A stretch of 64,000 bases of DNA from Ischnura elegans. Its lineage: Eukaryota; Arthropoda; Insecta; Odonata; Coenagrionidae. Position numbers and translations under genes: made by a program. Shown here piece by piece: positions 16,991-64,000 of this stretch (position 1 is the stretch's first letter; each line of letters starts with the position of its first letter). The stretch lies in the NCBI RefSeq assembly GCF_921293095.1, contig NC_060258.1, positions 4,836,001 to 4,900,000 of the forward strand, read 5' to 3'. The notes under the pieces are model-generated. The model was not told the origin of the DNA and did not search any database. It saw only the letters and a program-made list of their open reading frames with translations.

Positions 16991-16995
16991 AAAAA

Positions 16996-23113: not shown

Positions 23114-23231
23114 TATTCTGACTCTGTAGAATATTCACAAGGGGATTCGAAAAATGAGAATATGTTGGAGGATGCATTCTCTCGTTGCCTAGTTCACAAT
23201 TGCCGCACTATACTTGATTCGATACTAGTGA

Positions 23232-30643: not shown

Positions 30644-30848
30644 CACGCAAATGGCTCTCTCAGGCGACGTGAACCATATCCTACGTAAAGAGTCGTACTA
30701 TGGAAGACGTGATCAAGGGGAAGAAAATAAAATTAATTAACTGCAAAATGGACAAATTATCATTATTTCCTCGTACTATCAAGCAGTTCCGGATATAGAA
30801 AAACTCAAGGGAGGGGTGCGCAAAAGATATTTTGACCTACCTATAATA

Positions 30849-33548: not shown

Positions 33549-34088
33549 CTCGCTGCGCTGCGCGCGCTCGTTAAGGGGCTCCGCCCCTTATAAACCCCGG
33601 TTCCGGCTTCGCCGTCTATACTCGTGATCTTTGGAAGAATTTTAGTTTGAATAATCTCACCTCAGCTAGGGGCCGGCTTCGCCGGCTAGGGGGTAGATAA
33701 GCGCCATATTCATTCCTCGGAACGGCTTCGCCGTTCCTCGTTGTGAGGCGGCTTCGCCGCCCAGGGGTTGAGTGTGCCCTAAGGGGCTTCCTCGCACAAT
33801 ACTCGAAACGGCTTCGCCGTTCCTCGTCTGGGGTCGGCATAGCCACCCAGAGGGCGAGGGCTTTTTGGAACTTTTTCAGCGTTATTCGTTTAAGGGGCGG
33901 CTTCGCCGCCCAGGGGTAGATGGAGCCCACAGCTGCTGCGCCGCTTGAACATCGCGGTGTTTCTCTCCCCGGGGGTTACTGAAGCTCCCCCTTGCCTACG
34001 CCAGTTACTCCTCGGAACGTCTTCTCCGCCTTGGGGATGAAGAGCCTCCCGCGGCTATTCCACCTAGTCCTCATTAATGCTCTTCTCC
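33549..34088 (+). repeat. GC hairpin block 1 (family I)
   Basis: Leftmost block. Head hairpin TTAAGGGGC-TCC-GCCCCTTA at 33571-33590, followed by hairpins of the GGAACGGC and GGGCGGC classes, several with degenerate stems. Ends with a pyrimidine-rich TCATTAATGCTCTTCTCC shared with block 3. It is more decayed than the family II blocks, as if older. Confidence 0.9.
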
Positions 34089-36020
34089 TAATTAATCATA
34101 GTCCTAAATAATGAGTGGTAGGGGCACCGGTTAAAGTGTGACGAAAACTATTCGGAAAGGCGATGTTAAAAATTTTTTTTCGTCGAGGTTCCAGGGGTTT
34201 TCTGGTATTATTTCCCGTATGGTTTGCGGCGGTTCGCCCTCACCAAATATTCCGGATCTAGAGCTCAGAGGGGACGGTAAGTGCGGCGTAATGTTTGCGA
34301 GAAGTTCCCAAATAGAAGACTTATTGGTACATTTTACATTTGGGGGGGGACTTCAGGGGGATACCGGGGGTTTATACGTGTGTACTCCCTGCGGTAACCA
34401 GCCGTTCACAAAAATTCCGTGGGGATGAGTCGTTTGGGGGCGGTGGAATAGTCACGAAAAGTACCATAAAAGTAGACTTATATGTAAAATTTTATTTTTT
34501 GGGGGATGTATGTGGGTTGACCGGGGGTTTATAGGTTTGTACTGCCAGGGATCATTAATCGTCCGCATCAATTCCGTAGCGACGAGTGGTAACGCTTGAG
34601 AAAAAGAAGGAATAGTGACGAAAAGTACCCAAAAAGGCTACTCATATGCAGATTTTAATTTTTAGGGGGTTTCAGGGGGTTTAAAGATGACGATGTTCTA
34701 TGGTCACATCCTTTTACTATCATATCTAACAGAAGTGTGCCCTATGACATCCATATTTCGAGAGTAATACAATAAAAAGCAAACCAGTCCTCGAAAAAAG
34801 TGAGTAGTGCCCGCCATTTTTATTTTTTCGCGGTTAAATCCATTAAATCATTTATTAAATGTTTATATTTTCTAAAAGTTAAGGCATAGTTGTATGCAAC
34901 TAAAAATTTTGAAAGAAATGAGTCAGGTTTAAATTGAAAAAATCCTATGTTAACGTTTTGGAAATCGTAATTTTCGGTGATTTTCGGAATATTTTAATTT
35001 TTTTCTGAGAAACCAAGGACGACGAAAGAAAATTGTTACCTAAATTTCGCAGACGATGTTATGAACATACATAATAATCATTTTCGTTGTCCAACTTACA
35101 AAATTAGGCCGAAAGCAGTGGAAAATAATAAATATTTTCCGAGAAATAGATTTTGGACGCCATTTTGAAAGAGTTTAAGTTAGAAATTAACTTAAAAAAT
35201 TACATAGGTACGTGGCGACATTTATTGGCTTTCATAATATACAACAACGGTCCGTGTGACGGAAATAAATCGCCTGTATAACGATAAAGAGTAAATGAAC
35301 TCTCGAGAAAATATGGGAACTGCCCGCCATTTTTTATTTTTTGGTGGTTTATCGAAGGCAATATTGTAAATAAATTTAAATTTTCTGAAAGCAAATGCAT
35401 AGTTTTATGTAAATACAAAGCGTTAACGAAATAGGTCGCGGAAAACTGGACGAAGTCTTGTGTTAATCTTTTGGAAATTGTACTTTTCAGTGATTTTTGG
35501 CATATTGTAATTTTTTTCTCGGCAACCAATGAAGACAAATCAAATTGTTGCCTAGGTTAAATGGAGAATCATAAAAGCATATATAATAATCATTTTCGTT
35601 GTGCAACACCAAAAATTAGGTGGATGGCAGCGGAAAGAATGAAAATGTTTCCGAAAAATCATTTTTTGGACGCCATTTTGGCGATGTTTAAATTAGCAAT
35701 TTAATTAAAGCAATACATACGTACGTGGCACAATTTATTGGCTTTCTAAATGCACAACAAAATTCCGAGTTGCTTGCACGGTTTTCGCGCAGTAAAATAA
35801 AATCCGAAAGACGGTCCCCGGAAAAAGGGCGATTTCGGCCATTTTGTTGACCTAGCGACGACACGTGGCGGAAACTTCCGGTTTTCGGATTTTTCCTCCG
35901 AATCATTTCGGGTTCCCCGCACGCGTGCCAAATTTCAGCTCTCCAACATGTCTAGAAGTGGTCTAGAGTTTCTATCCATGAGTGAGTGAGGCACACATCC
36001 GGCTGTATATAATAGGGAAA
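34089..36020 (+). repeat. AT spacer of family I, copy 1
   Basis: Holds at least three ~155-bp subrepeats (34366, 34521 and on), each with GGGGATGAG, GTCACGAAAAGTACC, TTATATG-AAATTTTATTTTTTGGGGG and runs of five or more Gs. The second half is A/T-rich with two diverged ~500-bp parts that both include CCGCCATTTTTATTTTTT. It ends with TGCCAAATTTCAG, GAGTGAGTGAGG and TGTATATAATA just before the next unit head. Confidence 0.85.
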
Positions 36021-37822
36021 CTCGCCGCGCTGCGCGCGCTCGTTAGGGGGCTACGCCCCCTAAAACCCCCCCGCATCCGGCTACGCCGGCTGCCCCCACC
36101 GGACGGCTTCGCCGTCCCACCCGCGGCGTCTCGGAACGGCTTCGCCGTTCCTCGTCAGGGGTCGGCTTCGCCGCCCAGATATCGAGGTAGCCCTGTGACG
36201 GAGACCCGCTTGTTCCTCGGAACGGCTTCGCCGTTCACCGTGGGAGGGCGGCTTCGCCGCACATGGGTTACCCGAGTCCCCCCGAGGCGTCCACTCCTGG
36301 TAACGGCATCGCCCTTCCTCTTGATGGGGCGGCTTCGCCGCCCAAGGTTTTCCTATGTCCCCCCGAGCCATCGACTTCTCGGAACGGCTTCGCCGTTCCT
36401 CGCCCGTGGTCGGCTTCGCCGCCCAAGGTTTACCTGTGCCCCCCCGAGCCGTCGCCTCCACCGGACGGCTTCGCCGTCCCACCCGCGGCGTCTCGGAACG
36501 GCTTCGCCGTTCCTCGTCAGGGGTCGGCTTCGCCGCCCAGATATCGAGGTAGCCCTGTGACGGAGACCCGCTTGTTCCTCGGAACGGCTTCGCCGTTCAC
36601 CGTGGGAGGGCGGCTTCGCCGCACATGGGTTACCCGAGTCCCCCCGAGGCGTCCACTCCTGGTAACGGCATCGCCCTTCCTCTTGATGGGGCGGCTTCGC
36701 CGCCCAAGGTTTTCCTATGTCCCCCCGAGCCATCGACTTCTCGGAACGGCTTCGCCGTTCCTCGCCCGTGGTCGGCTTCGCCGCCCAAGGTTTACCTGTG
36801 CCCCCCCGAGCCGTCGCCTCCACCGGACGGCTTCGCCGTCCCACCCGCGGCGTCTCGGAACGGCTTCGCCGTTCCTCGTCAGGGGTCGGCTTCGCCGCCC
36901 AGATATCGAGGTAGCCCTGTGACGGAGACCCTCTTGTACCTCGAAACGGCTTCGCCGGTCATCGTGGGAGGGCGGCTTCGCCGCCCAAGTGTTACCCGAG
37001 TCCCCCCGAGGCTCGACTCTTGGTAACGGCATCGCTCTTCCTCGTGATGGGGCGGCTTCGCCGCCCAAGGTTTGCCTGGGTCCCCCCGAGCCATCGACTT
37101 CTCGGAACGGCTTCGCCGTTCCTTGCCCGTGGACGGCTTCGCCGCCCAAGGTTTACCTGTGTCCCCCCGAGCCGTCGCCTCCTCGGAACGGCTTCGCCGT
37201 CCCACCCCCGACGTCTCGGAACGGCTTTGCCGTTTCTCGTCAGGGGTCGGCTTCGCCGCCCTGATATCGAGGTAGCCCTGTGACGGAGACCCGCTAGTTC
37301 CTGGGAACGGCTTCGCCGTTCCTCGTGGGAGGGCGGCTTCGCCGCACAAGTGTTACCCGAGTCCCCCCGAGGCGTCGGCTCCTGGGAACGGCATCGCCCT
37401 TCGTCGTGATGGGGCGGCTTCGCCGCCCAAGGTTTACCTGGGTCCCTCCGCGCCGTCGACTTCTCGGAACGGCTTAGCCGTTCCTCGCCCGTGGTCGGCT
37501 TCGCCGCCCAAGGTTTACCTGTGTACCCCCGGGCCATCGACTCCTCGGAACGGCTTCGCCGTTCCTCGCCCGTGGGCGGCTTCGCCGCCCAGGGGGTATC
37601 GTCGCCCTCCCCCCCTCGTAAGACACACGTTCGGGTGCTCCGCGTGTCGGGGCGGATTCGCCGCCCGAGGGTTCTCGGAGTTTTTCCTCGCCTCTGACTC
37701 CTCGGAGTGCGTCCGACGTTCCTGGAGCTGGGGGAGCTTCGCCGCCCGGGTTTTCACTCCTTACCAAGCAGTGAGAACTACCGGCTATCCCCTATCGTTT
37801 ACGAAGGCTGCCGGGGGATAAT
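36021..37822 (+). repeat. GC hairpin block 2 (family II, longest)
   Basis: 1.8 kb. Contains an internal 362-bp direct tandem duplication (about 36099-36460 and 36461-36822) with almost no differences. Ends with the block terminus shared by all family II blocks: GTAAGACACACG, GGGGCGGATTCGCCGCCC, CACTCCTTACCAAGC and GGCTGCCGGGGGATAAT. Closely similar to block 9 apart from the extra duplication. Confidence 0.93.
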
Positions 37823-39560
37823 ATTGGAGGATGTAGACGCATGCTAGCCGTGATTGTGGCATCTTTTTAATTTAAAACGATGTTTTTAAGGTGGTCCTGG
37901 GAGTTTCCAGGGTTTTTTTGTGAGTGTACTGACTACGGTCACAAGCATCCTAAGAAATTACTTAGCGATGAGTCATAGGAGAAGTAAATTACTGCTAAAA
38001 TATGCTAAAACACCAAAGAACATGCTATTTACAGAAAAAAAAATAATTTTTTCCCTGGTCTTCTAGGAGGGCACGTGAAATTTAGAGGGTTTTTCTTGCA
38101 TAAAAGGTTTTTGTCTACCTACAATAAAAATTCCAGCGATCTAGCTGTAGGGAAACAATGAATTTTTCCCCGTATTATTAATATTTAGATTTCCAATTCT
38201 GTGTTCTCCACATAGCGGGTGCATAGGCGCTTTAATAAGGCATAACTCCTGTGAATTTCGTAGCCGTACCTTATGGGGAAGTGGTTTAAAAAATTCGCCT
38301 TTAGGTGTCCATGTCCATGAGCCCCTTTTATTACTCTACTATTTTGTTAAGAAATGTACATTTAAAAATTTGAAGTTTTATTGCGGGTGAGTAATTGGGG
38401 CAGGATAATTGAACATGACGCGTAAATATAGCCGACACAATTCCCATTCGGAATCAATAAAAACGATACACCTGGATGAATGGTACACGAAATATACGAC
38501 TTATTAGGTAATTTTTATTTTTTTGGGGGGTTCACAGGGGGTTTTCGGGGGACCTAAAGTGCTTGTTCTGTATAACGCGGCATCCTTTACCTTGGATAAA
38601 AATTTCGGCTCTGTAGCTGTAGTGTAAGCATGCTTTTTCGACGGTGTCATCCGTTTAAATTAAGTATTCTGCGTTCTCCAGGTAGCGGCACGTAGGGGCA
38701 ACAAAAAGACGTCACTCACGTTAATTTCGTGGCCGTATGTCGTCGGGAAGTGGCAGAAAAAAATTCCGAAAAATTTAAAATCGTGTGTTGAGGGAATGCA
38801 AACTTCACGGCGGATGTATTGTAAGTTACCAAACGTTGTAGGAGTCGCAATTTCAATGGAAATACATAATCGTTAATAACTCGAAATTTGTTCGTCTTAA
38901 GGATACATGAAGATAGCCGAAAAATTGAATAAAAAATCTAGTATCTTGCATTTAAGTGAATTTGTCCTACGATTATTGCAAATTGGTGAAAAAAATTCCG
39001 AAATTCGGCCCATAAGAAAAGCATTGGAAATTTTAAATTGTTAAAAAAAATACTTTTAAACAAAAAATTGCAAAGGCAACCACACCAAAAAATCAACCAA
39101 AAAATCTAGTGTCTCATACGTTAGGGACTTATTCCTACAACGATTTTAAGTTGGTTTTAAAAAAATCCAAAGATAGGCCCATAAGAAAAGCATTGGAAAT
39201 TTAAAAAAATTATAAAAAATACTTATAAACAAAATATGGCAAAATAATTCACATCAAAAAATCGGCCAAAAAATCTTATTTCCGTCAGTGACATTTCATG
39301 TTCCCGTGACATTTTTAATTAGGCAAAAAATGGAATATGTTTTAGTCCCATAAGGCTCCAATGTTAATTCGGATCGATATATCTCGAAAACCGAACGACT
39401 TTTTCGAGTTTTCGGACTTTTCCCCCCGATGAATATTTTTTCTCCACGACCTGTAAAAATTTCGTCTTCCCAGCACGTCCGGAAGTGGTCGGGAATTTGT
39501 ATACGTGAATCAGTGAGGCAGTGAGCTATCTGTCACACATCGGGTTGTATATAATGTAGA
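37823..39560 (+). repeat. AT spacer of family II, copy 1
   Basis: Begins GACGCATGCTAGCCGTGATT after the block end. Contains a G-rich knot GGGGGGTTCACAGGGGG-TTTTCGGGGG near 38525, several stretches of AAAAATC words, GATCGATATATCTCGAAAACCG, then AATTTGTATACGTGAATCAG and TGTATATAATG before the next head. No open frame of note. Confidence 0.9.
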
Positions 39561-40128
39561 CTCGCTGCGCTGCGCGCGCTCGTTAAGGGGCTCCGCCCCT
39601 TAAAAACCCCGGTTCCGGCTTCGCCGTCTTTATTTTTGGTCGTTCGAAGACTTTTGAAGTTCAAATAATCTCATCTCAGCTAGCCGGCTTAGCCGGCCAG
39701 GGGGTAGGGAGGCACCCCACTCATTCCTGGGAACAGCTTCGCCGTTCCTCACTGAAGGGCGGCTTCGCCGCCCAGGGATTGAGTGTGCCCCCCCAGGGCT
39801 GCCCTGCTTAATACTCGGAACGGCTTCGCCTTTCCTCGTCTGGGGTTGCCATTGCCGCCCAGAGGGCGAGGGCATTTCGGAACAGTTTCACCGTTATCCG
39901 TTTGAGGGGCGGCTTCGCCGCCCAGAGATGGGGGGAGTCCACAGCGGCTGCGCCGCTTGAACATCGGGGCGGCTTCGCCGCCCGAGGGTTACTGAAGCTC
40001 CCCCTCGCCGAAGCCAGCTACTCCTCGGAACGGCTTCGCCGTTCCTCGTTTTGGGGCGGCTTCGCCGCCTTGAGGTTGAGGAGCCCCCCCGCGGCTGCTC
40101 CGCTTAGTCCTCATTAATGCTCTTCTCC
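39561..40128 (+). repeat. GC hairpin block 3 (family I)
   Basis: Second family I block, with the head TTAAGGGGC-TCC-GCCCCTTAA and the same 3' end as block 1. It sits between family II units, so the two families are interspersed and not segregated. Confidence 0.9.
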
Positions 40129-41890
40129 ACCTGGAAGGGTGCCCAGGGGGATTCGGGGGTTTTAATATGTTATGCATGCGGTCACCAATCGTCCACAGTG
40201 ATCACGTAGCGATGATTTTAAAGGGGTAGTGCAATGCGGAGTAATAGTGGCAACAAATACGCATAAAAGAAGACTTAAAGGCAAGTTTTTAATTTTTTTG
40301 CGGGGGGTTCCAACGGAATACCGGGGGTATACTTGTGTTAAACCAGTGGTCACAAATCGTTCTCATAAATTCCGTGCCAATAAGTCCTAGGGGTCCGGAG
40401 CAGTTGTTTGACGATTCTTTTACCTGGAGAGGCGATTTATTAGAATTTTTTGGGAGGTTTCACGGGGTTATCGGGGGTTTTAATAAGTGGTTTGGGCACC
40501 GGTTAAATTGTGACGAAAACTACTCGGAAAGGCGACTTTAACATTCATTAATTTTTTTTTCAGCGATGTTCCAGGAGGTGATCGGGGGTTTCTGGTGTAT
40601 TTTCCCGTATGGTTTACGGCTGCTCGCCCTCACCAAATATTCCGGATCTTGAGCTCAGAGGGGACGGGTAGTGTGGCGTAATGTTTGCGAGAAGTACCCA
40701 AATAGGAGACTAAATGACACATTTTACGTTTGGGAGGGATCTCAGGGAGATAGCAAGGGTTTAAATTTGTGTACTCCTGGCGGTCACCATCCATTTACAT
40801 TAATTCCGTGGGGATGAGTCGTTGGGGCGGTGGAATAGTCACGAAAAGTATCCAAAAAGTAGACTTATATGCAAAATTTTATTTTTTGGGGGGGTGTATG
40901 AGGGTTTACCGGGGGATTATAGGTTTTTACTGCCAGCGGTCATCAATCATCCACATCAATTCCGTAGCGATGAGAGGTAAGGCTTGGAAAAGCGGCGGAA
41001 TTGTGACGAAAAGTACCCGAAAAGGCTACTTATATGCAAATTTTAATTCTTTAGGGGGTTTCGGGGGGTTTAAAGATGACGATAATATATGGTCACATTC
41101 ATTTACTGCCATATCTAACAGTAGTGTGCCCTATGACATCTATATTTCGAGAGTAATACAATAAAAAGCCAGTCCCTGAAAAAAGTGAGTAGTGCCCGCC
41201 ATTTTTATTTTTTCGCTGTTAAATATATTGAATCATTTATTAAACGTTCATGTTTTCTGTAAAACAATAAATAGGTGTATGTAACTACAAAGTTTGAAAG
41301 AAATTGGTCAGGTTAAAATTGACATAATCTTGTGTTAATCTTTTGGAAATCGTAATTTTCGGTGATTTTCGGAATATTTTAATTTTTTCTCAGTAACCAA
41401 GGACGATGAAAGAAAATTGTTACCTATATTTCGTAGACGATGATATAAGCATATATAATAATCATTTTTGTTATCCTATACCTTAAATTAAGTCGAAGGG
41501 AGCGGAAGTTATGAAATTTTAATAGAAAAACGAATTTTTGGACGCCATTTTGGCTGCAATTTTCTGAAAAAGAAATTTACAACATTACGTTATTACGTGC
41601 CAACGTTCATCAGCTTTTAGGAAATGCATTAGCGATCCGTGTGGCACACACCATTCGCGCGCAGTAAAATAAAAACCGAAAGATGGTCCCCGAAAAAAGC
41701 CCGATCTCGGCCATTTTGTCGTCCTAGCGACGACACGTGGCGGAAACTTCCGGTTTTCGGATTTTTCCTCCGAATCATATCGGGTTGCCCGCACGCGTGC
41801 CAAATTTCAGCACTCCAGCACTTCTAGAAGTGGTCGGGAATTTGTATCCATCAGTCAGTCAGTCACCACAAGGGCTGTATATAGATAGGT
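40129..41890 (+). repeat. AT spacer of family I, copy 2
   Basis: Homologous to the spacer at 34089-36020, with additional G-rich subrepeats at its start (40140-40620) and the same sequence order after them, but lacking one of the two ~500-bp AT parts. Ends with TCAGTCAGTCAGTCACC and CTGTATATAGATAGG before the head of block 4. Confidence 0.85.
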
Positions 41891-42962
41891 CTCGCCGCGC
41901 TGCGCGCGCTCGTTAGGGGGCTACGCCCCCTAAAACCCCCCGCATCCGGCCTCGCCGGCTGCCCCCACCGGACGGCTTCGCCGTCCAACCCGCGACTACT
42001 CGGAACGGCTTCGCCGTACCTCGACGAGGGGTCGTCTTCGCCGCCCATATATTTAGGCAGCCCTCCGACAGACAGCAGCTGGTTCCTTAGAACGGCTTCG
42101 CCGTTCATCGTGTGAGGGCGGCTTCGCCGCACAAGGGTTACCCGAGTCCCCCCTAGGCGTGGACTCCTGGGAACGGCATCTCCCTTCCTCGTGCCGGGGC
42201 GGCTTCGCCTCCCAAGGTTTACCTATTTCCCCGAGCCATCGCCTCCTCGGAACGGCTGCGCCGTTGCTCGCGGGAGGGCGGCTTCGCCGCCCAAGGGTTA
42301 TCGGCGCCCTCCCTCGTTAGCTTCCTCGTAATGGGGCGGGTTCGCCGCCCAGGGTTTACCCGTGTTCCCCCGAGGCGTCGACTCCTGGGAACGGCGTCGC
42401 CCTTCCGCGTGATAGGGCGGCTTCGCCGCCCAAGGTTTATTTTGTCCCCCCGAGCCGTCGACTCCTCGGAACGGCTTCGCCGTTCCTCGTCTGTGGGCGG
42501 CTTCGACGCCCAAGGGTTATCGGCGCCCTCCCCCCGTAAGCTTCCTGGTGATGGGGCGCCTTCGCCGCCCAAGGTTTACCCGTGTCCCCCCGAGGCGTCA
42601 ACTCCTGGGAACGGCATCGCCCTTCCGCGTGATGGGGCGGCTTCGCCGCCCAAGGTTTACTGTGTCCCCCCGAACCGTCGACTCCTCGGAACGGCTTCGC
42701 CGTTCCTCGTCTTTGGGCGGCTTCGCCGCCCAAGGGTTATCGGCGCCCTCCCCACTCGTAAGACACCCATTCGGCTGCTCCACGTGTTGGAGCGGATTTG
42801 CCGCCCGAGGGTTCTCGGAGGTTTTCCGTGCCTCTGACTCCTCGGAATGTCTCCGTCGTTCCTGGGGCGGGGGCAGCTTCGCCGGCGGGGGTTTCACTCT
42901 TCACAGAGCAATGCGTACTACCAGCTTTCCCCGATCGTTTACAAAGGCTGCCGGGGGAGAAT
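41891..42962 (+). repeat. GC hairpin block 4 (family II)
   Basis: 1.07 kb. Its 3' part (from about 42200) is closely related to the 3' part of blocks 5 and 6, with the series of GTGTCCCCCCGAGGCGTC-linked hairpins. Many hairpins carry one-base stem mismatches. Confidence 0.9.
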
Positions 42963-44688
42963 GTGGCTGAATGTAGACGCATGCTAGCCGTGATTGTGGC
43001 ATTTTAGCTTATGACGATGTTTCGAACGGGGTCCGGGGGGTTTCCAGGGGTTTTTATGAGTATACTGACAACAGTCGCAATCATCCAAATAAATTCCTTA
43101 GCGATGAGTCATAGGAGAAGGGAGTTACTGCTAAAATATGCGAAAACACCGAAGAACATGCTGTTCACAGAAAAAAAATAATTTTTTCCCTGGTCTTCTT
43201 GGAAGCCACGGGAAATATCGAGGGGTTTTCTTGTATAAAAGGTCTTTGTCTACCTACAGTAAAAAGTCCAGCGATCTAACTGTAGGGGAACAGTGAATTT
43301 TCCCGTATTACTCACATTTAGATTACCAATTCTGTGTTCTCCACATAGCGGTGCATAGGCGCTGTAATAAGGCATAATTATTGTGAATTTCGTAGCCGTA
43401 CCTTATGGGGAAGTGGTTAAAATAAATCGGTTTTAGGTGTCCTTGTCCTGGAACCCCTTTTATTACTCTACTATTTTGTTAAGAAATGTACATTTAAAAA
43501 TTTGAAGTTTTATTGCGGGTGTGTAATTGGGGCAGGATAATTGAACATGACGCGTAAAAATAGCCGACACAATTCCCATTCGGAATCAATAAAAACGATA
43601 CAACTGGGATGAATGGTACACGAAATATACGACTTATTAAGTAATTTTTATTTTTTTGGGGGGTCACAGGGGGTTTTCGGGGGACCTAAAGTGCTTGGTC
43701 TGTAAAACGCGGCATCGTTAACCTTGGATAAAATTTTCGGCTCTGTAGCTGTAGTGTAAGCATGCTTTTTCGACGGTGTCACCCCTTAAAATTAAATATT
43801 CTGCGTTTTCCTGGTAGCGGCGCGTACGGGCACGAGAAAGACGTCAATCACCTGAATTTGGTGTCCGTACCACGTCGGGAAGTGGTAAAAAAAAATTGGG
43901 AAAAATTTAAAATCGTGTGTTGAGGGAATGCAAACTTCACGGCGGATGTGTTGTAAGTTACCGAACCTTGTAGGAGTCGCAATTTCAATGGAAATACATA
44001 ATCGTTAATAACTCGAAATTTTTTCGTCGTTTGGATACATGAAGATAGCCGAAAAATTGAATAAAAAATCTAGTATCTTGCATTTAAGTGAATTTGTCCT
44101 ACGATTATTGCATATTGGTGAAAAAAATTCCGAAATTCGGCCCATAAGAAAAGCATTGAAAATTTGAAAAAGTTAAAAAAAATACTTTTAATCAAAATAT
44201 TGCAAAGAAAACGACACCAAAAAATCAACCAAAAAATCTAGTATCTCATACGTTAAGGACTTATTCCTACAACGATTCAAAGTTGGTTTAAAAAAAATCC
44301 AAAGATAGGCCCATAAGAAAAGCATTGGAAATTTAAAAAAAATATAAAAAATACTTTAAATCAAAATATGGCAAAATGTTTCACATCAAAAAATCGGCCA
44401 AAAAATCTAGTTTCCGTCAGTGAAATTTCACGTTCAGGTGACATTTGCAAGTGGGCGAAGAATGGAAAGAGTTTTAGTCCCGTAAGGCTCCAATGTTAAT
44501 TCGGATCGATATATCTCGAAAACCGAACGACTTTTTCGAGTTTTCGGACTTTTCCCCCCGATGAATATTTTTTCTCCACGACCTGTAAAAATTTCGTCTT
44601 CCCAGCACGTCCGGAAGCGGTCGGGAATTTGTATACGTGAATCAGTGAGTGAGCTATCTGTCACACATCGGGTTGTATATAATATAGA
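42963..44688 (+). repeat. AT spacer of family II, copy 2
   Basis: Same order of landmarks as the spacer at 37823. It differs in short A-runs and in GATCGATATATCTCG flanks, and is closest to the spacers after blocks 5 and 6. Confidence 0.9.
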
Positions 44689-52166: not shown

Positions 52167-52914
52167 ATATTGGAGGATGTAGACGCATGCTAGCCGTGAT
52201 TGTGGCATCTTTTTAATTTATAACGATGTTTTTAAGGCGGTCCTGGGAGTTTCCAGGGTTTTTTTGTGAGTGTACTGACTACGGTCACAATCATCATAAG
52301 AAATTACTTAGCGATGAGTCATAGGAGAAGGGAATTACTGCTTAAATATGCTAAAACACCAAAGAACATGCTATTTACAGAAAAAAAATAATTTTTTCCC
52401 TGGTCTTCTAGGAAGCCACGTGAAATTTAGAGGGGTTTTCTTGCATAAAAGGTCTTTGTCTACCTACAATAAAAATTCCAGCGATCTAGCTGTAGGGGAA
52501 CAATGAATTTTCCCGTATTATTAATATTTAGATTTCCAATTCTGTGTTCTCCACATAGCGGTGCATAGGCGCTTTAATAAGGCATAACTCCTGTGAATTT
52601 CGTAGCCGTACCTTATGGGGAAGTGGTTTAAAAAATTCGCCTTTAGGTGTCCATGTCCATGAGCCCCTTTTATTACTCTACTATTTTGTTAAGAAATATC
52701 ATAAGAAATTACTTAGCGATGAGTCATAGGAGAAGGGAATTACTGCTTAAATATGCTAAAACACCAAAGAACATGCTATTTACAGAAAAAAAATAATTTT
52801 TTCCCTGGTCTTCTAGGAAGCCACGTGAAATTTAGAGGGGTTTTCTTGCATAAAAGGTCTTTGTGTACCTACAATAAAAATTCCAGCGATCTAGCTGTAG
52901 GGGAACAATGAATG
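52167..52914 (+). repeat. AT spacer, broken and internally duplicated
   Basis: Starts as a normal family II spacer, but at 52697 jumps back to sequence equivalent to 52293 and repeats it for ~217 bp up to 52914. The second copy has TTTGTGTACC where the first has TTTGTCTACC; the same G is found in the spacer after block 10 (about 62150). This looks like a fusion of two different array units. Confidence 0.85.
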
Positions 52915-54743
52915 AAAAATGAAATATAGATTGTATATAATATAGATTATTCATAATGAACAAAATTATTCATGGCGGACGATTAAGCCGAGTCCAGTTG
53001 AGTTGGTTGTGTTCGCTTGCATTGTCAGAGAACCAAGTGATGGAGCTGCTAGCTGAATCCATCGAACATAATTCGCTCCTAATTATGGAATTTTATTCAA
53101 TAGGCTTACATTGTAATAAAAATGATTGTACCAGCAACAGAAGTACTTTACGTAGTTATACTTCTAAATAGATTAAAATTTTGTGGGTATAATATTCCCT
53201 AACTCTTTATTGGTTGCGTGTAACCAATAAAGCTGCAGCTGACTCATGAGCTCAAGCGATCCCATGGGCTCGCCACTTCCCTAAACTTTCCGTAGCTATT
53301 CCAGCGTAATAAAAAGAGGACCAACTACGAATATCATTTCTCAGACAAAAAGGCACTATGTCTGCTCCCCTTTAATTGTTTCTATGAGGGTATACTGCGT
53401 TCCACATCCTGTCGACAGTGTGGGCGCTTATGTAGAATCGTTTCCCATGTTAATCTCCATAAGGCCAGGAACGCTGTGTTTTCAATAGGAGCATGAAAAT
53501 TAATACTGCGCTATGCACTGTTTAACGTTGTATTCTAATCTAGGATGAGACGCTGCATTCATTGGTGCCAATATTTTTTCGATAAAAATTATAGCAAAGG
53601 GCGTATAAAAACTTTCATAAATTTCCATTACAAAGGTGCGTTTTTTTATTTTATCTTCCTCTCGTAATAGTCGCATAACCGTTGTTTATATTGGATTGAA
53701 TCTTCTACAAAAATTCTTCACACTCTTTTCTCTTTGGAGGTCTTCACTTTTTAAAAACTTACGTTAAAACGTTTTTATATCGACGCTGCACTCTTAAGGA
53801 CAAGAAAATTTGGATTTTTGCTAGGTAAAAAAGTAGTCGCTCACTAACTTCCGTTTCTTTACGTTATAGATCCCTTTATTTTCCGTATCAAATTGGGGGA
53901 AGAGGTGCAAAATTTATTTTTAGTGAAACAATCATTAACTTTTATCAATTCTGAACGGAGTTCAAAAGTTTTTAACATAAGAAAAAATATAATATCGCCG
54001 CTGGGACGAGAAGAAATTTTCAAAAGTTGAAATTGTTGCATCTTCGAACCCAGTGAATCGAGATATGTGTTGTGGAGTTGTTTCAAAAAGGAAAAAATAT
54101 TTTTAATGAGAGTTGAGGGATCGAAAAGCGTATCAATAATGTCATAGGACAGTTTAAAAGATATTTATAGACTCCTTTGAATAAACATTGCAAACAATTT
54201 AAAGAGTATAGATAATCGTAAACACTCAATTAGTTAATGGTAATTGAGGATTCTCCGCGCTCTCCTCCCCCTAATTCCTTATTTGTGCCTTTATGAATGA
54301 GACAGATCTTTTAAGAACATTTAAACCCTTCCCATCACATGCGGCGAAAATGTTAAAATGCGTTTCGTTGGGCCATGGAGCAGGTAATTCAATGATGGGC
54401 GTAGTACACCCTCCATAGGGTCGCTAAGCAAGAATCCTTTTCTCGACGAGCTCAACCTCGCTGGCCCGTATCAGGGACCCTCCGAGCATGGGGCCTCCCT
54501 CCTGAAAAGTGACCCTCTCGCTGGTCGCTTAACTATTACTCGGTTTGATGCACGTAATTAGCAGAGGGGGTATTTTCTGGACTTGCATTCGCTCAATTTT
54601 GAGTGTTTACACGGGTAAATTATGACGGTAAGCATGTTTACGCATCTACTCCGGCGGGAGAATCCATCGTGAAGACACGCTTTTAAACCTTATGCATACA
54701 ACGCAAAAAATACCCAAACTGGCGCAGTAATTACGGCAACAAC
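52915..54743. other. Non-array DNA interrupting the array
   Basis: About 1.8 kb unrelated to the repeat units. Contains a perfect 11-bp inverted repeat with a 6-base loop (CTTTATTGGTT at 53205, AACCAATAAAG ending 53232) and a GC-richer segment at 54400-54560. No gene recognised; a 71-codon frame at 52956-53171 has no motif. It replaces the rest of one spacer and the head of the next GC block. Confidence 0.7.
53205..53232. other. Perfect stem-loop
   Basis: 11-bp arms around GCGTGT. It does not match the histone 3' stem-loop consensus, and no T-run follows it. Confidence 0.5.
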
Positions 54744-55854
54744 GGCGTCGCCGCCCAAGGTTTTCCTGTGTCCCCCCGAGCCATCGACTTCTCGGAACGG
54801 CTTCGCCGTTCCTCGCCCGTGGTCAGCTTCGCCGCCCAAGGTTAACCTGTGTCCCCCCGAGCCATTGACTTCTCGGAACGGCTTCGCCGTTCCTCGCCCG
54901 TGGTCGGCTTCGCCGCCCAAGGTTTACCTGTGTCCCCCCGAGCCGTCGCCTCCACCGGACGGCTTCGCCGTCCCACCCGCGGCGTCTCGGAACGGCTTCG
55001 CCGTTCCTCGTCAGGGGTCGGCTTCGCCGCCCAGATATCGAGGTAGCCCTGTGACGGAGACCCTCTTGTACCTCGGAACGGCTTCGCTGGTCGTCGTTGG
55101 AGGGCGGCTTCGCCGCCCAAGGGTTACCCGAGTCCCCCCGAGGCTCGACTCCTGGTAACGGCATTGCTCTTCCTCGTGATGGGGCGGCTTTGCCGCCCAA
55201 GGTTTTCCTGGGTCCCCCCGAGCCATCGACTTCTCGGAACGGCTTCGCCGTTCCTCGCCCGTGGTCGGCTTCGCCGCCCAAGGTTTACCTGTGTCCCCCC
55301 GAGCCGTCGCCTTCTCGGAACGGCTTCGCCGTTCCTCGCCTGTGGGCGGCTTCGCCGCCCGAGGGTTATTGGCGACCCGAATCCGGCTTCGCCGGCTGCC
55401 CCCGCCGGACGGCTTCGCCGTCCCACCCCCGACGTCTCGGAACGGCTTCGCCGTTCCTCGTCAGGGGTCGGCTTCGCCGCCCAGATATCGAGGTAGCCCT
55501 GTGACGGAGACCCGCTAGTTCCTGGGAACGGCTTCGCCGCCCAAGGTTTACCTGGGTACCCCCGGGCCATCGACTCCTCGGAACGGCTTCGCCATTCCTC
55601 GCCCGTGGGCGGCTTCGCCGCCCAGGGGGTATCGTCGCCCTCCCCCCTCGTAAGACACACGTTCGGGTGCTCCGCGTGTCGGGGCGGATTCGCCGCCCGA
55701 GGGTTTTCGGAGTTTTTCCTCGCCTCTGACTCCTCGGAGTGCGTCCGACGTTCCTGGAGCTGGGGAAAAAATGGCCGCCCGGGTTTTCACTCCTTATCAA
55801 GCAGTGAGAACTACCGGCTATCCCCTATCGTTTACGAAGGCTGCCGGGGGATAA
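54744..55854 (+). repeat. GC hairpin block 8 (family II, head missing)
   Basis: Begins inside a hairpin (GGCGTCGCCGCCC) instead of at the head sequence, so its 5' part was lost at the junction with the non-array DNA. Internal sequence resembles blocks 2 and 9. One hairpin near 55765 is disrupted to GGGGAAAAAATGGCCGCCC. Confidence 0.9.
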
Positions 55855-57586
55855 AATTGGAGGATGTAGACGCATGCTAGCCGTGATTGTGGCATCTTTT
55901 TAATTTATAACGATGTTTTTAAGGCGGTCCTGGGAGTTTCCAGGGTTTTTTTGTGAGTGTACTGACTACGGTCACAATCATCGTAAGAAATTACTTAGCG
56001 ATGAGTCATAGGAGAAGGGAATTACTGCTAAAATATGCTAAAACACCAAAGAACATGCTATTTACAGAAAAAAAATAATTTTTTCCCTGGTCTTTAAGGA
56101 AGCCACGTAAAATTTAGAGGGGTTTTCTTGCATATAAGGTCTTGGTCTACCTACAATAAAAATTCCAGCGATGTAGCTGTAGGGAAACAATGAATTTTCC
56201 CGTATTATTAATATTTAGATTTCCAATTCTGTGTTCTCCACATAGCGGTGCATAGGCGCTTTAATAAGGCATAACTCCTGTGAATTTCGTAGCCGTACCT
56301 TATGAGGAAGTGTTTTAAAAAATTCGCCTTTAGGTGTCCATGTCCATGAGCCCCTTTTATTACTCTACTATTTTGTTAAGAAATGTACATTTAAAAATTT
56401 GAAGTTTTATTGCGGGTGAGTAATTGGGGCAGGATAATTGAACATGACGCGTAAATATAGCCGACACAATTCCCATTCGGAATCAATAAAAACGATACAC
56501 ATGGGATGAATGGTACACGAAATATACGACTTATTAGGTAATTTTTATTTTTTTGGGGGGTTCACAGGGGGTTTTCGGGGGACTTAAAGTGCTTGTTCTG
56601 TATAACGCGGCATCCTTTACCTTGGATAAAAATTTCGGCTCTGTAGCTGTAGTGTAAGCATGCTTTTTCGACGGTGTCATCCGTTTAAATTAAGTATTCT
56701 GCGTTCTCCGGGTAGCGGCACGTAGGGGCAACAAAAAGACGTCACTCACGTTAATTTCGTGGCCGTATGTCGTCGGAAAGTGGCAGAAAAAAATTCCGAA
56801 AAATTTAAAATCGTGTGTTGAGGGAATGCAAACTTCACGGCGGATGTATTGTAAGTTACCAAACGTTGTAGGAGTCGCAATTTCAATGGAAATACATAAT
56901 CGTTAATAATCCGAAATTCGTTCGTCTTAAGGATACATGAAGGTAGCCGAAAAATTGAATAAAAAATCTAGTATCTTGCATTTAAGTGAATTTGTCCTAC
57001 GATTATTGCAAATTGGTGAAAAAAATTCCGAAATTCGGCCCATAAGAAAAGCATTGGAAATTTTAAATTGTTAAAAAAAATACTTTTAAACAAAAAATTG
57101 CAAAGGCGACCACACCAAAAAATCAACCAAAAAATCTAGTGTCTCATACGTTAGGGACCTATTCCTACAACGATTATGAGTTGGTTTTAAAAAAATCCAA
57201 AGATAGGCCCATAAGAAAAGCATGGAAAATTTAAAAAAATTATAAAAAATACTTTCAATCAAAATATGGCATAATGTTTCGCATTAAAAAATCGGCCAAA
57301 AAATCTAGTTTCCGTCAGTGAAATTTCATGTTCCCGTGACATTTTTAAGTAGGCAAATAATGGAATATGTTTTAGTCCCATAAGGCTCCAATGTTAATTC
57401 GGATCGATATATCTCGAAAACCGATCGACTTTTTCGAGATTTCGGACTTTTCCCCCCGATGAATATTTTTTCTCCACTACCTGTAAAAATTTCGTCTTCC
57501 CAGCACGTCCGGAAGTGGTCGGGAATTTGTATACGTGAATCAGTGAGTGTGCTATCTGTCACACATCGGGTTGTATATAATATAGA
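55855..57586 (+). repeat. AT spacer of family II, copy 5
   Basis: Full-length and very close to the spacers at 37823 and 59113, with a few point differences such as CGATCGACTTTTTCGAGATT near 57424. Confidence 0.92.
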
Positions 57587-59112
57587 CTCGCCGCGCTGCG
57601 CGTGCTCGTTAGGGGGCTACGCCCCCTAAAACCCCCCCGCATCCGGCTACGCCGGCTGCCCCCACCGGACGGCTTCGCCGTCCCACCCGCGGCGTCTCGG
57701 AACGGCTTCGCCGTTCCTCGTCAGGGGTCGGCTTCGCCGCCCAGATATCGAGGTAGCCCTGTGACGGAGACCCGCTTGTTCCTCGGAACGGCTTCGCCGT
57801 TCACCGTGGGAGGGCGGCTTCGCCGCACATGGGTTACCCGAGTCCCCCCGAGGCGTCCACTCCTGGTAACGGCATCGCCCTTCCTCTTGATGGGGCGGCT
57901 TCGCCGCCCAAGGTTTTCCTATGTCCCCCCGAGCCATCGACTTCTCGGAACGGCTTCGCCGTTCCTCGCCCGTGGTCGGCTTCGCCGCCCAAGGTTTACC
58001 TGTGCCCCCCCGAGCCGTCGCCTCCACCGGACGGCTTCGCCGTCCCACCCGCGGCGTCTTGGAACGGCTTCGCCGTTCCTCGTCAGGGGTCGGCTTCGCC
58101 GCCCAGATATCGAGGTAGCCCTCTGACAGAGACCCTCTTGTACCTCGGAACGGCTTCGCCGGTCATCGTGGGAGGGCGGCTTCGCCGCCCAAGTGTTACC
58201 CGAGTCCCCCCGAGGCTCGACTCCTGGTAACGGCATCGCTCTTCCTCGTGATGGGGCGGCTTGGCCGCCCAAGGTTTGCCTGGGTCCCCCCGAGCCATCG
58301 ACTTCTCGGAACGGCTTCGCCGTTCCTTGCCCGTGGACGGCTTCGCCGCCCAAGGTTTACCTGTGTCCCCCCGAGCCGTCGCCTCCTCGGAACGGCTTCG
58401 CCGTTCCTCGCCTGTGGGCGGCTTCGCCGCCCGAGGGTTATCGGCGACCCGAATCCGGCTTCGCCGGCTGCCCCCACCGGACGGCTTCGCCGTCCCACCC
58501 CCGACGTCTCGGAACGGCTTTGCCGTTTCTCGTCAGGGGTCGGCTTCGCCGCCCAGATATCGAGGTAGCCCTCTGACAGAGACCCTCTTGTACCTCGGAA
58601 CGGCTTCGCCGGTCATCGTGGGAGGGCGGCTTCGCCGCACAAGTGTTACCCGAGTCCCCCCGAGGCGTCGGCTCCTGGGAACGGCATCGCCCTTCGCCGT
58701 GATGGGGCGGCTTCGCCGCCCAAGGTTTACCTGGGTCCCTCCGCGCCGTCGACTTCTCGGAACGGCTTAGCCGTTCCTCGCCCGTGGTCGGCTTCGCCGC
58801 CCAAGGTTTACCTGTGTACCCCCGGGCCATCGACTCCTCGGAACGGCTTCGCCGTTCCTCGCCCGTGGGCGGCTTCGCCGCCCAGGGGGTATCGTCGCCC
58901 TCCCCCCTCGTAAGACACACGTTCGGGTGCTCCGCGTGTCGGGGCGGATTCGCCGCCCGAGGGTTCTCGGAGTTTTTCCTCGCCTCTGACTCCTCGGAGT
59001 GCGTCCGACGTTCCTGGAGCTGGGGGAGCTTCGCCGCCCGGGTTTTCACTCCTTACCAAGCAGTGAGAACTACCGGCTATCCCCTATCGTTTACGAAGGC
59101 TGCCGGGGGATA
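57587..59112 (+). repeat. GC hairpin block 9 (family II)
   Basis: 1.5 kb, nearly the same as block 2 but with one copy of the segment that is duplicated there (362 bp) and an extra CGGCTTCGCCGGC-type hairpin near 58455. Confidence 0.93.
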
Positions 59113-60845
59113 ATATTGGAGGATGTAGACGCATGCTAGCCGTGATTGTGGCATCTTTTTAATTTAAAACGATGTTTTTAAGGTGGTCCTGGGAGTTTCC
59201 AGGGTTTTTTTGTGAGTGTACTGACTACGGTCACAAGCATCCTAAGAAATTACTTAGCGATGAGTCATAGGGGAAGGGAATTACTGCTAAAATATGCTCA
59301 AACACCAAAGAACATGCTATTTACAGAAAAAAAATAATTTTTTCCCTGGTCTTCTAGGAGGGCACGTGAAATTTAGAGGGTTTTTCTTGCATAAAAGGTT
59401 TTTGTCTACCTACAATAAAAATTCCAGCGATCTAGCTGTAGGGAAACAATGAATTTTCCCGTATTATTAATATTTCGATTTCCAATTCTGTGTTCTCCAC
59501 ATAGCGGTGCATAGGCGCTTTAATAAGGCATAACTCCTGTGAATTTCGTAGCCGTACCTTATGGGGAAGTGGTTTAAAAAATTCGCCTTTAGGTGTCCAT
59601 TTCCATGAGCCCCTTTTATTACTCTACTATTTTGTTAAGAAATGTACATTTAAAAATTTGAAGTTTTATTGCGGGTGAGTAATTGGGGCAGGATAATTGA
59701 ACATGACGCGTAAATATAGCCGACACAATTCCCATTCGGAATCAATAAAAACGATACACCTGGGATGAATGGTACACGAAATATACGACTTATTAGGTAA
59801 TTTTTATTTTTTTGGGGGGTTCACAGGGGGTTTTCGGGGGACCTAAAGTGCTTGTTCTGTATAACGCGGCATCCTTTACCTTGGATAAAAATTTCGGCTC
59901 TGTAGCTGTAGTGTAAGCATGCTTTTTCGACGGTGTCATCCGTTTAAATTAAGTATTCTGCGTTCTCCGGGTAGCGGCACGTAGGGGCAACAAAAAGACG
60001 TCACTCACGTTAATTTCGTGGCCGTATGTCGTCGGGAAGTGGCAGAAAAAAATTCCGAAAAATTTAAAATCGTGTGTTGAGGGAATGCAAACTTCACGGC
60101 GGATGTATTGTAAGTTACCAAACGTTGTAGGAGTCGCAATTTCAATGGAAATACATAATCGTTAATAACTCGAAATTTGTTCGTCTTAAGGATACATGAA
60201 GATAGCCGAAAAATTGAATAAAAAATCTAGTATCTTGCATTTAAGTGAATTTGTCCTACGATTATTGCAAATTGGTGAAAAAAATTCCGAAATTCGGCCC
60301 ATAAGAAAAGCATTGGAAATTTTAAATTGTTAAAAAAAATACTTTTAAACAAAAAATTGCAAAGGCAACCACACGAAAAAATCAATCAAAAAATCTTGTG
60401 TCTCATACGTTAGGGACTTATTCCTACAACGATTTTAAGTTGGTTTTTAAAAAATCCAAAGATAGGCCCATAAGAAAAGCATTGGAAATTTAAAAAAATT
60501 ATAAAAAATACTTTCAATCAAAATATGGCATAATGTTTCGCATTAAAAAATCGGCCAAAAAATCTAGTTTCCGTCAGTGAAATTTCATGTTCCCGTGACA
60601 TTTTTAAGTAGGCAAATAATGGAATATGTTTTAGTCCCATAAGGCTCCAATGTTAATTCGGATCGATATATCTCGAAAACCGATCGACTTTTTCGAGATT
60701 TCGGACTTTTCCCCCCGATGAATATTTTTTCTCCACTACCTGTAAAAATTTCGTCTTCCCAGCACGTCCGGAAGTGGTCGGGAATTTGTATACGTGAATC
60801 AGTGAGTGTGCTATCTGTCACACATCGGGTTGTATATAATATAGA
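59113..60845 (+). repeat. AT spacer of family II, copy 6
   Basis: Near-identical to the spacers at 37823 and 55855, sharing ACCTAAAGTGC and GGGTAGCGGCACG variants. Confidence 0.92.
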
Positions 60846-61862
60846 CTCGCCGCGCTGCGCGCGCTCGTTAGGGGGCTACGCCCCCTAAAACCCCCCCGCA
60901 TCCGGCTTCGCCGGCTGCCCCCACTGGACGGCTTCGCCGTCCCACCCGCGGCGTCTCGGAACGGCTTTGCCGTTCCTCGTCAGGGGTCGGCTTCGCCGCC
61001 CAGATATCGAGGTAGCCCTGTGACGGAGACCCGCTTGTTCCTCGGAACGGCTTCGCCGTTCATCGTGGGAGGGCGGCTCAACCGCACAAGGGTTACCCGA
61101 GTCCCCCCGAGGCGTCGACTCCTGGTAACGGCATCGCCCTTCCTCGTGAAAGGGCGGCTTCGCCGCCCAAGGTTTTCCTGGGTCCCTCCGAGCCATCGAC
61201 TTCTCGGAACGGCTTCGCCGTTCCTCGCCCGTGGTCGGCTTCGCCGCCCAAGGTTTACCTGTGTCCCCCCGAGCCGTCGCCTCCTCGGAACGGCTTCGCC
61301 GTTCCTCGCCTGTGGGCGGCTTCGCCGCCCGAGGGTTATCGGCGACCCGAATCCGGCGGCCCCCACCGGACGGCTTCGCCGCCCAGATATCGAGGTAGCC
61401 CTGTGACGGAGACCCGCTAGTTCCTGGGAACGGCTTCGCCGTTCCTCGTGGGAGGGCGGCTTCGCCGCACAAGTGTTACCCGAGTCCCCCCGAGGCGTCG
61501 GCTCCTGGGAACGGCATCGCCCTTCCTCGTGATGGGGCGGCTTCGCCGCCCAAGGTTTACCTGTGTACCCCCGGGCCATCGACTCCTCGGAACGGCTTCG
61601 CCGTTCCTCGCCCGTGGGCGGCTTCGCCGCCCAGGGGGTATCGCCGCCTTCCCCCCTCGTAAGACACACGTATGGGTGCTCCGCGTGTCGGGGCGGATTC
61701 GCCGCCCGAGGGTTCTCGGAGTTTTTCCTCGCCTCTGACTCCTCGGAGTGCGTCCGACGTTTTTGGAGCTGGGGGAGCTTCGCCGCCCGGGTTTTCACTC
61801 CTTACCAAGCAGTGAGAACTACCGGCTATCCCCTATCGTTTACGAAGGCTGCCGGGGGATAA
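60846..61862 (+). repeat. GC hairpin block 10 (family II)
   Basis: Near-identical to block 7, with sporadic changes such as TATCGCCGCC against TATCGTCGCC near 61640. Lies three units further on, which suggests a higher-order arrangement. Confidence 0.94.
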
Positions 61863-63596
61863 TATTGGAGGATGTAGACGCATGCTAGCCGTGATTGTGG
61901 CATCTTTTTAATTTATAACGATGTTTTTAAGGCGGTCCTGGGAGTTTCCAGGGTTTTTTTGTGAGTGTACTGACTACGGTCACAATCATCATAAGAAATT
62001 ACTTAGCGATGAGTCATAGGAGAAGGGAATTACTGCTTAAATATGCTAAAACACCAAAGAACATGCTATTTACAGAAAAAAAATAATTTTTTCCCTGGTC
62101 TTCTAGGAAGCCACGTGAAATTTAGAGGGGTTTTCTTGCATAAAAGGTCTTTGTGTACCTACAATAAAAATTCCAGCGATCTAGCTGTAGGGGAACAATG
62201 AATTTTACCGTATTATTAATATTTAGATTTCCAATTCTGTGTTCTCCACATAGCGGTGCATAGGCGCTTTAATAAGGCATAACTCCTGTGAATTTCGTAG
62301 CCGTACCTTATGGGGAAGTGGTTTAAAAAATTCGCCTTTAGGTGTCCATGTCCATGAGCCCCTTTTATTACTTTACTATTTTGTTAAGAAATGTACATTT
62401 AAAAATTTGAAGTTTTATTGCGGGTGAGTAATTTTGGGCAGGATAATTGAACATGACGCGTAAATATAGCCGACACAATTCCCATTCGGAATCAATAAAA
62501 ACGATACACCTGGGATGAATGGTACACGAAATATACGACTTATTAGGTAATTTTTATTTTTTTGGGGGGTTCACAGGGGGTTTTCGGGGGACCTAAAGTG
62601 CTTGTTCTGTATAACGCGGCATCGTTTACCTTGGATAAAAATTTCGGCCCTGTAGCTGTAGTGTAAGCATGCTTTTTCGACGGTGTCATCCGTTTAAATT
62701 AAGTATTCTGCGTTCTCCGGGTAGCGGCACGTAGGGGCAACAAAAAGACGTCACTCACGTTAATTTCGTGGCCGTATGTCGTCGGGAAGTGGCAGAAAAA
62801 AATTCCGAAAAATTTAAAATCGTGTGTTGAGGGAATGCAAACTTCACGGCGGATGTATTGTAAGTTACCAAACGTTGTAGGAGTCGCAATTTCAATGGAA
62901 ATACATAATCGTTAATAACTCGAAATTCGTTCGTCTTACGGATACATGAAGATAGCCGAAAAATTGAATAAAAAATCTAGTATCTTGCACTTAAGTGAAT
63001 TTGTCCTACGATTATTGCAAATTGGTGAAAAAAATTCCGAAATTCGGCCCATAAGAAAAGCATTGAAAATTTGAAAAAGTAAAAAAAAAATACTTTAAAT
63101 CAAAATATTGCAAAGAAAACGACACAAGAAAATCAACCGAAAAATCTAGTATCTCATACGTTAAGGAATTATTCCTACAACGATTTAAAGTTGGTTTTAA
63201 AAAAATCCAAAGATAGGCCCATAAGAATAGCATTGGAAATTTAAAAAAATTATAAAAAATACTTTAAATCAAAATACGGCTAAATGGTTCACATCAAAAA
63301 ATCGGCCAAAAAATCTAGTTTCCGTCAGTGAAATTTCACGTTCCAGTGACGTTTGCAAGTAGGCGAAGAATGGAAAAAGTTTTAGTCCCATAAGGCTCCA
63401 ATGTTAATTCGGATCGATATATCTCGAAAACCGATCGACTTTTTCGAGTTTTCGGATTTTTCCCGCCGATGAATATTTTTTCTTCACCCACGGTGAAAAT
63501 TTCGTCTTCCCAGCACGTCCGGAAGTGGTCGGGAATTTGTATACGTGAATGAGTCAGTGAGCTATCTGTCACACATCGGGTTGTATATAATATAGA
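61863..63596 (+). repeat. AT spacer of family II, copy 7
   Basis: First ~1.1 kb resembles copy 6; the last ~550 bp resembles the spacers of blocks 4-6 (GAAAACGACAC and CACCCACGGTGAAAATTTCG words). A mosaic, as recombination between units would give. Confidence 0.88.
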
Positions 63597-64000
63597 CTCG
63601 CCGCGCGGCGCGCGCTCGTTAGGGGGCTACGCCCCCTAAAACCCCCCCGCATCCGGCTTCGCCGGCTGCCCCCACTGGACGGCTTCGCCGTCCCACCCGC
63701 GGCGTCTCGGTACGGCTTTGCCGTTCCTCGTCAGGGGTCGGCTTCGCCGCCCAGATATCGAGGTAGCCCTGTGACGGAGACCCGCTTGTTCCTCGGAACG
63801 GCTTCGCCGTTCATCGTGGGAGGGCGGCTCAACCGCACAAGGGTTACCCGAGTCCCCCCGAGGCGTCGACTCCTGGTAACGGCATCGCCCTTCCTCGTGA
63901 AAGGGCGGCTTCGCCGCCCAAGGTTTTCCTGGGTCCCTCCGAGCCATCGACTTCTCGGAACGGCTTCGCCGTTCCTCGCCCGTGGTCGGCTTCGCCGCCC
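63597..64000 (+). repeat. GC hairpin block 11 (family II, cut by window end)
   Basis: Same opening as block 7, including CGCGCGGCGCGCG and the CTCAACCGCAC variant. The array continues beyond the window. Confidence 0.93.

Follow-up and report, generated by a model that had tools for sequence, protein, structure and literature searches.

The array of GC-rich hairpin blocks that begins at position 33549 of the window (the whole stretch of 64,000 nucleotides of Ischnura elegans DNA analysed here, C13:4836001-4900000, in a genome of 1.72 Gb and 110 contigs) is, with a probability that we put at about 0.87, a head-to-tail concatemer of a non-coding Helitron-type rolling-circle transposon. The folded minus strand is most likely the strand that Helitrons transfer (the sense strand), and the hairpins are most likely its 3' terminator in multiplied form. 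The original prediction held that the minus strand is folded as single-stranded DNA, as in rolling-circle replication, and this is now very probable in view of Helitron ends, end-to-start fusions, and a relative encoding a Rep-helicase. The same note took the array for an undescribed animal satellite, which it is not: the unit is a Helitron-type transposon, present both in tandem and as solo copies. Within the window, the array resolves into the following copies and parts.

33549-36020, minus (sense) strand: element copy 1; hairpin block 33549-34090 with 10 GCTNCGC, 3' module, solo-type end
36001-36020, minus strand: example of a neighbouring copy's 5' end, sense TCCCTATTATATACAGCC, abutting the 3' end module (end-to-start fusion)
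36021-39560, minus strand: element copy 2, fused to copy 1; hairpin block 36021-37760 with 37 GCTNCGC
36021-36061, minus strand: example of a 3' end module, with terminal hairpin T (loop TGC on plus, GCA on sense) and hairpin E (TAC on plus, GTA on sense)
36092-37591, minus strand: internal array of 81-bp units, every one carrying hairpin A (GGAACGGC) and hairpin B (GGGCGGC)
39561-41890, minus strand: element copy 3, solo-type subfamily, E hairpin TTAAGGGGC-TCC; hairpin block 39561-40110
41891-44688, minus strand: element copy 4; hairpin block 41891-42900
44689-47919, minus strand: element copy 5, 3231 bp
47920-51150, minus strand: element copy 6, 3231 bp
51151-57586, minus strand: element copy 7 and a further copy; hairpin blocks 51151-52110 and 54743-55720
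57587-60845, minus strand: element copy; hairpin block 57587-59050
60846-63596, minus strand: element copy; hairpin block 60846-61810
63597-64000, minus strand: element copy, truncated by the end of the window

The repeats do run through position 64000, but the array is longer than the ~30 kb first ascribed to it, extending to 76017 in window numbering (L029, L050). At 33549, the 3' end of copy 1 borders host DNA, the adjoining host base being an A in plus-strand reading and a T in sense-strand reading. Up to 76017, a 3' module is fused to a 5' end 12 times. At the joint between copies 1 and 2 (36021), two additional bases lie between the ends; the joint at 41891 has a single base change, T for A; and the hairpin block at 54743 is missing its 3' end module. 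Copies 5 and 6 are 99.9% identical (3 mismatches in 3231 bases), and unit spacings near 6436, 3259, and 2751 recur beyond the window as 6437, 2752, and 3231. Therefore, duplication of whole units has also acted.

In 33549-64000, GCTTCGC occurs 177 times on the plus strand and GCGAAGC never, just as had been claimed; each occurs once in 1-33548. With any base in the middle of the loop (GCTNCGC/GCGNAGC), the counts become 216 and 0 in the array and 4 and 4 before it, and a complete array block holds from 10 to 37 GCTNCGC. The density first quoted, 16 heptamers in 920 bp, was close: 51151-52166 (1016 bp) has 16, of which 15 fall in its first 921 bp, and the maximum for any 920 bp in the window is 21. 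Triloop hairpins of at least 5 bp number 4-28 per block in 21 blocks (18 dispersed and 3 from the window), against means of 0.6-3.3 in 200 dinucleotide shuffles per block, and the plus strands of the same blocks have 3-26 TNC loops each and 0 GNA.

The loops were said to be always TTC on the plus strand and GAA on the minus strand. This is too narrow: TAC, TCC, and TGC are also found, so that the minus-strand loops are GAA, GTA, GGA, and GCA, closed by C-G, and off-rule plus-strand loops occur as well (ATC, TTT, TTA, ATA, GTC, and others). The stems differ (GGAACGGC, GGGCGGC, GGACGGC, GGCCGGC, TTAAGGGGC or TTAGGGGGC, and CGCGC). A TNC loop (GNA on the sense strand, closed by G-C pairs) is present in 105 of 141 distinct hairpin 19-mers, or in 105 of 137 without the four (3 GAA, 1 AAA) that stem from an opposite-orientation copy at locus L019. 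GNA is a better fit to the loops than GAA, off-rule loops notwithstanding. It is also the rule published for the loops of extraordinarily stable DNA mini-hairpins, as given in the excerpted text of PMC4686876, where d(GCGNAGC), likewise with a GNA loop closed by G-C pairs, is heat stable and protects against 3'-exonuclease; there, however, it is a biophysical oligonucleotide motif and not a mobile element.

The element is not confined to the array. A 17-mer from hairpin A has 3329 exact places in the genome, 1774 forward and 1555 reverse, and 20 stretches on contig C1 were fetched, picked from 100 listed places (all on C1). Solo copies of a single element make up most of these, measuring about 1.8-3.9 kb wherever both ends were located; their flanks are unrelated to each other, while the ends are constant. 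No 5' (sense) end was recognised in L012, L013, and L014; the 3' modules of L010, L023, and L026 are damaged; L027 starts inside a hairpin block; and L028 sits in a cluster. The element of L018, the single copy whose frames were listed, has no frame longer than 163 amino acids. GGCTNCGCC has one polarity at 19 of the 20 fetched loci, L019 holding two copies in opposite orientation, and the bare heptamer has one opposite-polarity stray each in L022 and L027. Polarity is a fixed property of the individual copy and not of the genome. Hence, the claim that it never switches holds within the array but not genome-wide, where copies lie in both orientations. Such fixed loop polarity would be expected because, by our interpretation, the hairpins are the 3' end of one defined element. 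The body of the L025 element also contains repeated G-runs (GGGGGTTT type), possible quadruplexes as judged by eye.

On the plus strand, copies start A^CTCGC and finish GATAGGA^T or AATAGAGA^T, where the caret marks the element boundary; the insertion reads on the minus strand as A^5'-TC...CGAG-3'^T. The sense 5' start of solo copies is TCC or TCT (TCC/TCT...TATATACA), with L015 lacking the usual end. The copies thus have the 5'-TC of Helitrons, whose 5' consensus is TCTMTAYTA, and one array joint (41891) differs. In plus-strand terms, the host has A before the 3' end at all 17 ends that border host DNA; following the 5' end, it has T in 11 of 13 cases and C in the other 2, with L015 excluded. 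At L009 an empty site, supplied by a neighbouring host tandem repeat, matches the joined flanks at 93.9% along 297 bp spanning GAATA^TTCTTG, without gain or loss. Insertion between A and T with no target duplication, as in Helitrons, has its exceptions in L015, L020, and L026, and a convincing target-site duplication was seen in 1 of 14 scored copies (L015).

Among 36 intact 3' modules (overlapping loci and the damaged L010, L023, and L026 are omitted from the count), 19 are joined directly to a 5' end and 17 are flanked by host DNA; a loose rule gave 21 and 15, and reading of the sequences moved L014 and L024 to the host-flanked class. A^T insertion probably could not make such fusions, since that would leave an A immediately 5' of the element, where the fusions have the G of CGAG.

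A coding relative is at hand. PF14214 (Helitron_like_N) has 119 genome matches, four of them at C13:4917074, 4982617, 5022581, and 5085137 on the minus strand, and the element with the match at C13:4917074 has its 3' end fused to the array at 76017, on the same strand. Its product (L050:5332-8604, minus) matches PF14214 (1e-29), PIF1 (9.3e-50), and Pif1_2B (6.5e-12). The element's 3' module agrees with 12 array modules at 80.6-87.5% over the first 72-116 aligned positions and carries hairpins T, E, D, and A, with loops TGC, TAC, TGC, and TTC; the loop of a fifth hairpin, H, is ATC and so off the rule. In six regions at equal distance from other PF14214 matches, the module appears in four (L052, L053, L054, L057), each time fused to the 5' end of another copy. 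L052 and L057 have five hairpins each, all TNC; L053 and L054 have one hairpin of at least 5 bp (TCC). Three coding copies show 4-5 hairpins, compared with 10-37 GCTNCGC in an array block. The similarity of the coding copy to L063 reaches about 85.6 kb, without a tail. No reverse transcriptase was found in the four frames searched of the array-fused coding element, nor was the endonuclease domain of Helentrons found in four frames of one coding copy, which were searched as pieces and, for one frame, in part.

A frame upstream of the Rep-helicase (L051:289-1464, minus) matches Herpes_teg_N (PF04843, 6.3e-8), named from herpesvirus tegument proteins. The four Rep-helicase matches of C13:4917074-5085685, all on the minus strand, lie 40-66 kb apart with one TAG inside each, and a large-scale regional duplication is likely there. 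A second Helitron family (L060, L061; PF14214 near 1e-59) has the 3' end GACAGGACGAAGTCTGTCGGGTCAGCTAG^T, and the similarity of its two copies stops within about 10 bases past CTAG; its CTAG^T is preceded by a possible C-GAA-G hairpin, in a near-optimal fold only (-3.0 vs -3.2). No such end was recognised in a third family (L058, L059).

In 49 distinct 81-bp units (from 78, selected by at least 53 of 81 consensus matches), variation is 4-11% in stems and 5-14% in loops, compared with 31% elsewhere. Hairpin E, in 32 distinct modules, has one pair that is A-T in 22 and G-C in 10, with no mixed case, under loops TCC, TAC, and TTC; the switch could be a single event. The loops of terminal hairpin T are TCC, TGC, and TAC, with GGC in 2 of 31. 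In 17 aligned copies (15 fetched and 2 from the window), shared variants are scarcer in stems (10/96) than between hairpins (70/323; p=0.012), whereas singleton variants do not differ significantly (23/96 vs 59/323; p=0.24), as expected if the active lineage were constrained and inserted copies decayed freely. Comparison of the rest of the element in the same 17-row alignment was uninterpretable, the subfamilies being too divergent.

Among the closest known systems are the canonical Helitrons (Helitron1), such as Helraiser/Helibat1, which, in the excerpts of PMC4778049 and PMC5876387, shares with the present element the 5'-TC, insertion between A and T without duplication, a terminator hairpin near the 3' end, joined ends, and a Rep with a PIF1-type helicase. 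In those excerpts, the 5'-TC of Helraiser joins A and its CTAG-3' joins T, Helitrons leave no target duplication, and Helraiser circles contain joined 3'-to-5' ends; the hairpin acts as a terminator whose stem can be exchanged with about 90% activity, while a change of loop behaves like deletion of the hairpin (PMC4778049). The differences are a 3' CGAG here in place of the CTAG/CTRR of canonical Helitrons, many hairpins in place of Helraiser's one 19-bp palindrome 11 nucleotides from the end, and GNA loops in place of ATT. Because the Helraiser loop is ATT, the GNA loop is not general. In Fusarium oxysporum, FoHeli1 and FoHeli2 (Helitron2/Helentron) have terminal hairpins whose sense-strand loops are GAA, with C-G as the closing pair, but the part of PMC5148889 in question quotes these for the 5' end, whereas the array hairpins are at the 3' end, and gives the Helitron2/Helentron target as TNAT^T, compared with A^T here. 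The same text reports joined ends for that group and one three-copy tandem in Metarhizium. Plant tandem Helitron arrays (Xiong et al. 2016, as excerpted in the review PMC12628747) are described as rolling-circle products left as tandems; they have many 5' ends and a single 3' end, whereas the fusions of the present element, those of coding copies included, all combine an entire 3' module with a 5' end. A limited keyword search of the literature found no description of a multiplied Helitron 3' hairpin.

In its workings the element resembles a Helitron, and Helitron enzymes are encoded by its coding relative. We do not class it as a canonical Helitron1, because CTRR is absent and because, in place of a single hairpin about 10-12 nucleotides before the 3' end, there are several, the terminal one adjoining CGAG. 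Asymmetric terminal inverted repeats were not seen by eye when the ends were read, no search for them having been run. The possibility that internal hairpins serve as alternative 3' ends was considered and found unsupported: L027 starts in the hairpin block but not at CTCG.

Several results weigh against the Helitron interpretation. The 3' end of intact copies is CGAG rather than CTRR, and only one empty site (L009) was found. The flanks of L015 carry an exact duplication of 18 bp, which is un-Helitron-like; its 5' (sense) end is altered, and it differs from the other copies in both respects. Two of the six predicted coding-copy ends (L055, L056) lack the module. A search over 16 kb did not reveal the coding copy's 5' end, and because of this the pairing of coding and non-coding elements rests on the 3' module and the fusion. 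The 81-bp units show no compensated changes of stem pairs; the loops of the multiplied hairpins show no significant freedom of the middle base (14 of 36 single changes, p=0.48); and a strand bias of wobble pairs is not significant (38 vs 24, p=0.10). Nor do whole-block folding energies favour either strand, with tables that give no credit to the GNA loops of the small hairpins B and E. The sole case in which the minus strand is favoured as DNA is terminal hairpin T of the solo subfamily (-5.3 vs -2.7 kcal/mol), since no G-T wobble can form on the other strand.

By the mechanism proposed, the Rep-helicase of coding relatives would act in trans, as inferred from the family, nicking the 5'-TC end and peeling off the sense strand. 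The 3' end of the peeled strand would then fold into GNA mini-hairpins, at which the helicase may stop and the 3' end be cut after CGAG, by analogy with Helraiser; to judge from the oligonucleotide work, the hairpins might also protect that end. The ends would join into a circle, and concatemers of joined copies could give the precise 3'-to-5' fusions that are observed. Later, unequal exchange would duplicate whole units, as the 3231-bp pair with its 3 differences suggests. We infer a circular or single-stranded intermediate from the fused ends, which would be its footprint in this genome.

It is less likely than not that the extra hairpins have a function. Tentatively, the cluster may be a multi-terminator: transposases would read a C-GNA-G loop code on the strand transferred, and loops stacked at the 3' end might provide surer termination and a single-stranded end proof against nucleases, enabling the element to out-multiply its coding relatives and form concatemers. 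The chances are about even that the extra hairpins are instead neutral by-products of replication slippage and quasi-palindrome correction in single-stranded DNA, with no selection for termination. This would contest only the functional reading of the multiplication and not the Helitron identity, so its odds overlap those of the best explanation. It accords with the wide range of hairpin number in complete array blocks and with the many hairpins that are imperfect or off the loop rule; it accords less well with the lower shared variation in stems and the conservation of both hairpins in the 81-bp units, but conversion could give the same.

Helitron identity itself is contested by a view, very unlikely in our estimation, that the element is a non-coding retrotransposon moved by the enzyme of a long interspersed nuclear element (LINE), with the plus strand as sense, the GC block at the 5' end, GTATATAGATAGGA as a 3' tail, and tandems formed by insertion into its own tail. 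The A/T-rich end does resemble a tail, and the flank duplication at L015 would be at home in this scheme. L015, however, is the only convincing case among the 14 scored (the match at L009 is the host repeat itself), the empty site shows no duplication, and the array-fused coding element contains Rep and PIF1 domains, with no reverse transcriptase in the four frames searched.

It is at least as improbable that the array is an ordinary satellite expanded by unequal exchange, whose hairpins and polarity were inherited from one ancestor and play no role. The near identity of copies 5 and 6, the 81-bp sub-repeats, and the spacings recurring past the window are what such a history predicts, and unequal exchange certainly adds to array length, but it leaves the origin and the ends unexplained. 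The unit is also found as dispersed solo copies with constant ends, GNA loops are kept on different stems in dispersed and coding copies, and shared variants are fewer in stems; L005, L021, and L028, which indicate fusions at solo loci whose flanks are unrelated, point the same way. The different stems with GNA loops also answer, in part, the refuting condition first set, that one recent amplification might explain the enrichment of the heptamer; the loops of the 81-bp sub-repeats, in contrast, are mostly inherited by duplication.

A functional structured RNA read from the minus strand, the other role first proposed for that strand, is scarcely credible: both strands do fold strongly as RNA, but equally so on either strand, no Rfam match reaches gathering score, and GNA loops are a rule for DNA hairpins. 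A scan found no tRNA. With regard to a prokaryotic or viral source, the end-module pattern occurs 0 times in viral_contigs and 0 times in genome_contigs, and hairpin A 0 times in viral_contigs.

The part of the window before the array contains other repeats. Pieces of a Copia-type long terminal repeat (LTR) retrotransposon, with RVT_2, integrase core, and GAG-pre-integrase in several broken frames, lie at 5998-10081 (minus), and a BEL/Pao-type element with Pao peptidase, DUF1759, and integrase at 11100-17216 (minus). Two direct repeats (11100-11318 and 16998-17216; 219 bp, 99.1% identical) bound the latter and look like its LTRs. A 25-bp tandem repeat (8 copies, 91% matches) occupies 10889-11087, and 21823-23125 and 30845-31513 are diverged duplicated stretches of 77-81% identity.

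The array family bears on the unsettled question of which 3' feature Helitron transposases recognise. It looks like a natural counterpart of the Helraiser swaps, in that the stems differ and the loop is mostly GNA, and the fusions of complete ends, coding copies included, constitute a readable genomic record of joined-end products. If the loops of other Helitron families follow the rule, then 3' ends lacking CTRR would become findable by their loops, and recognition would become directly testable.

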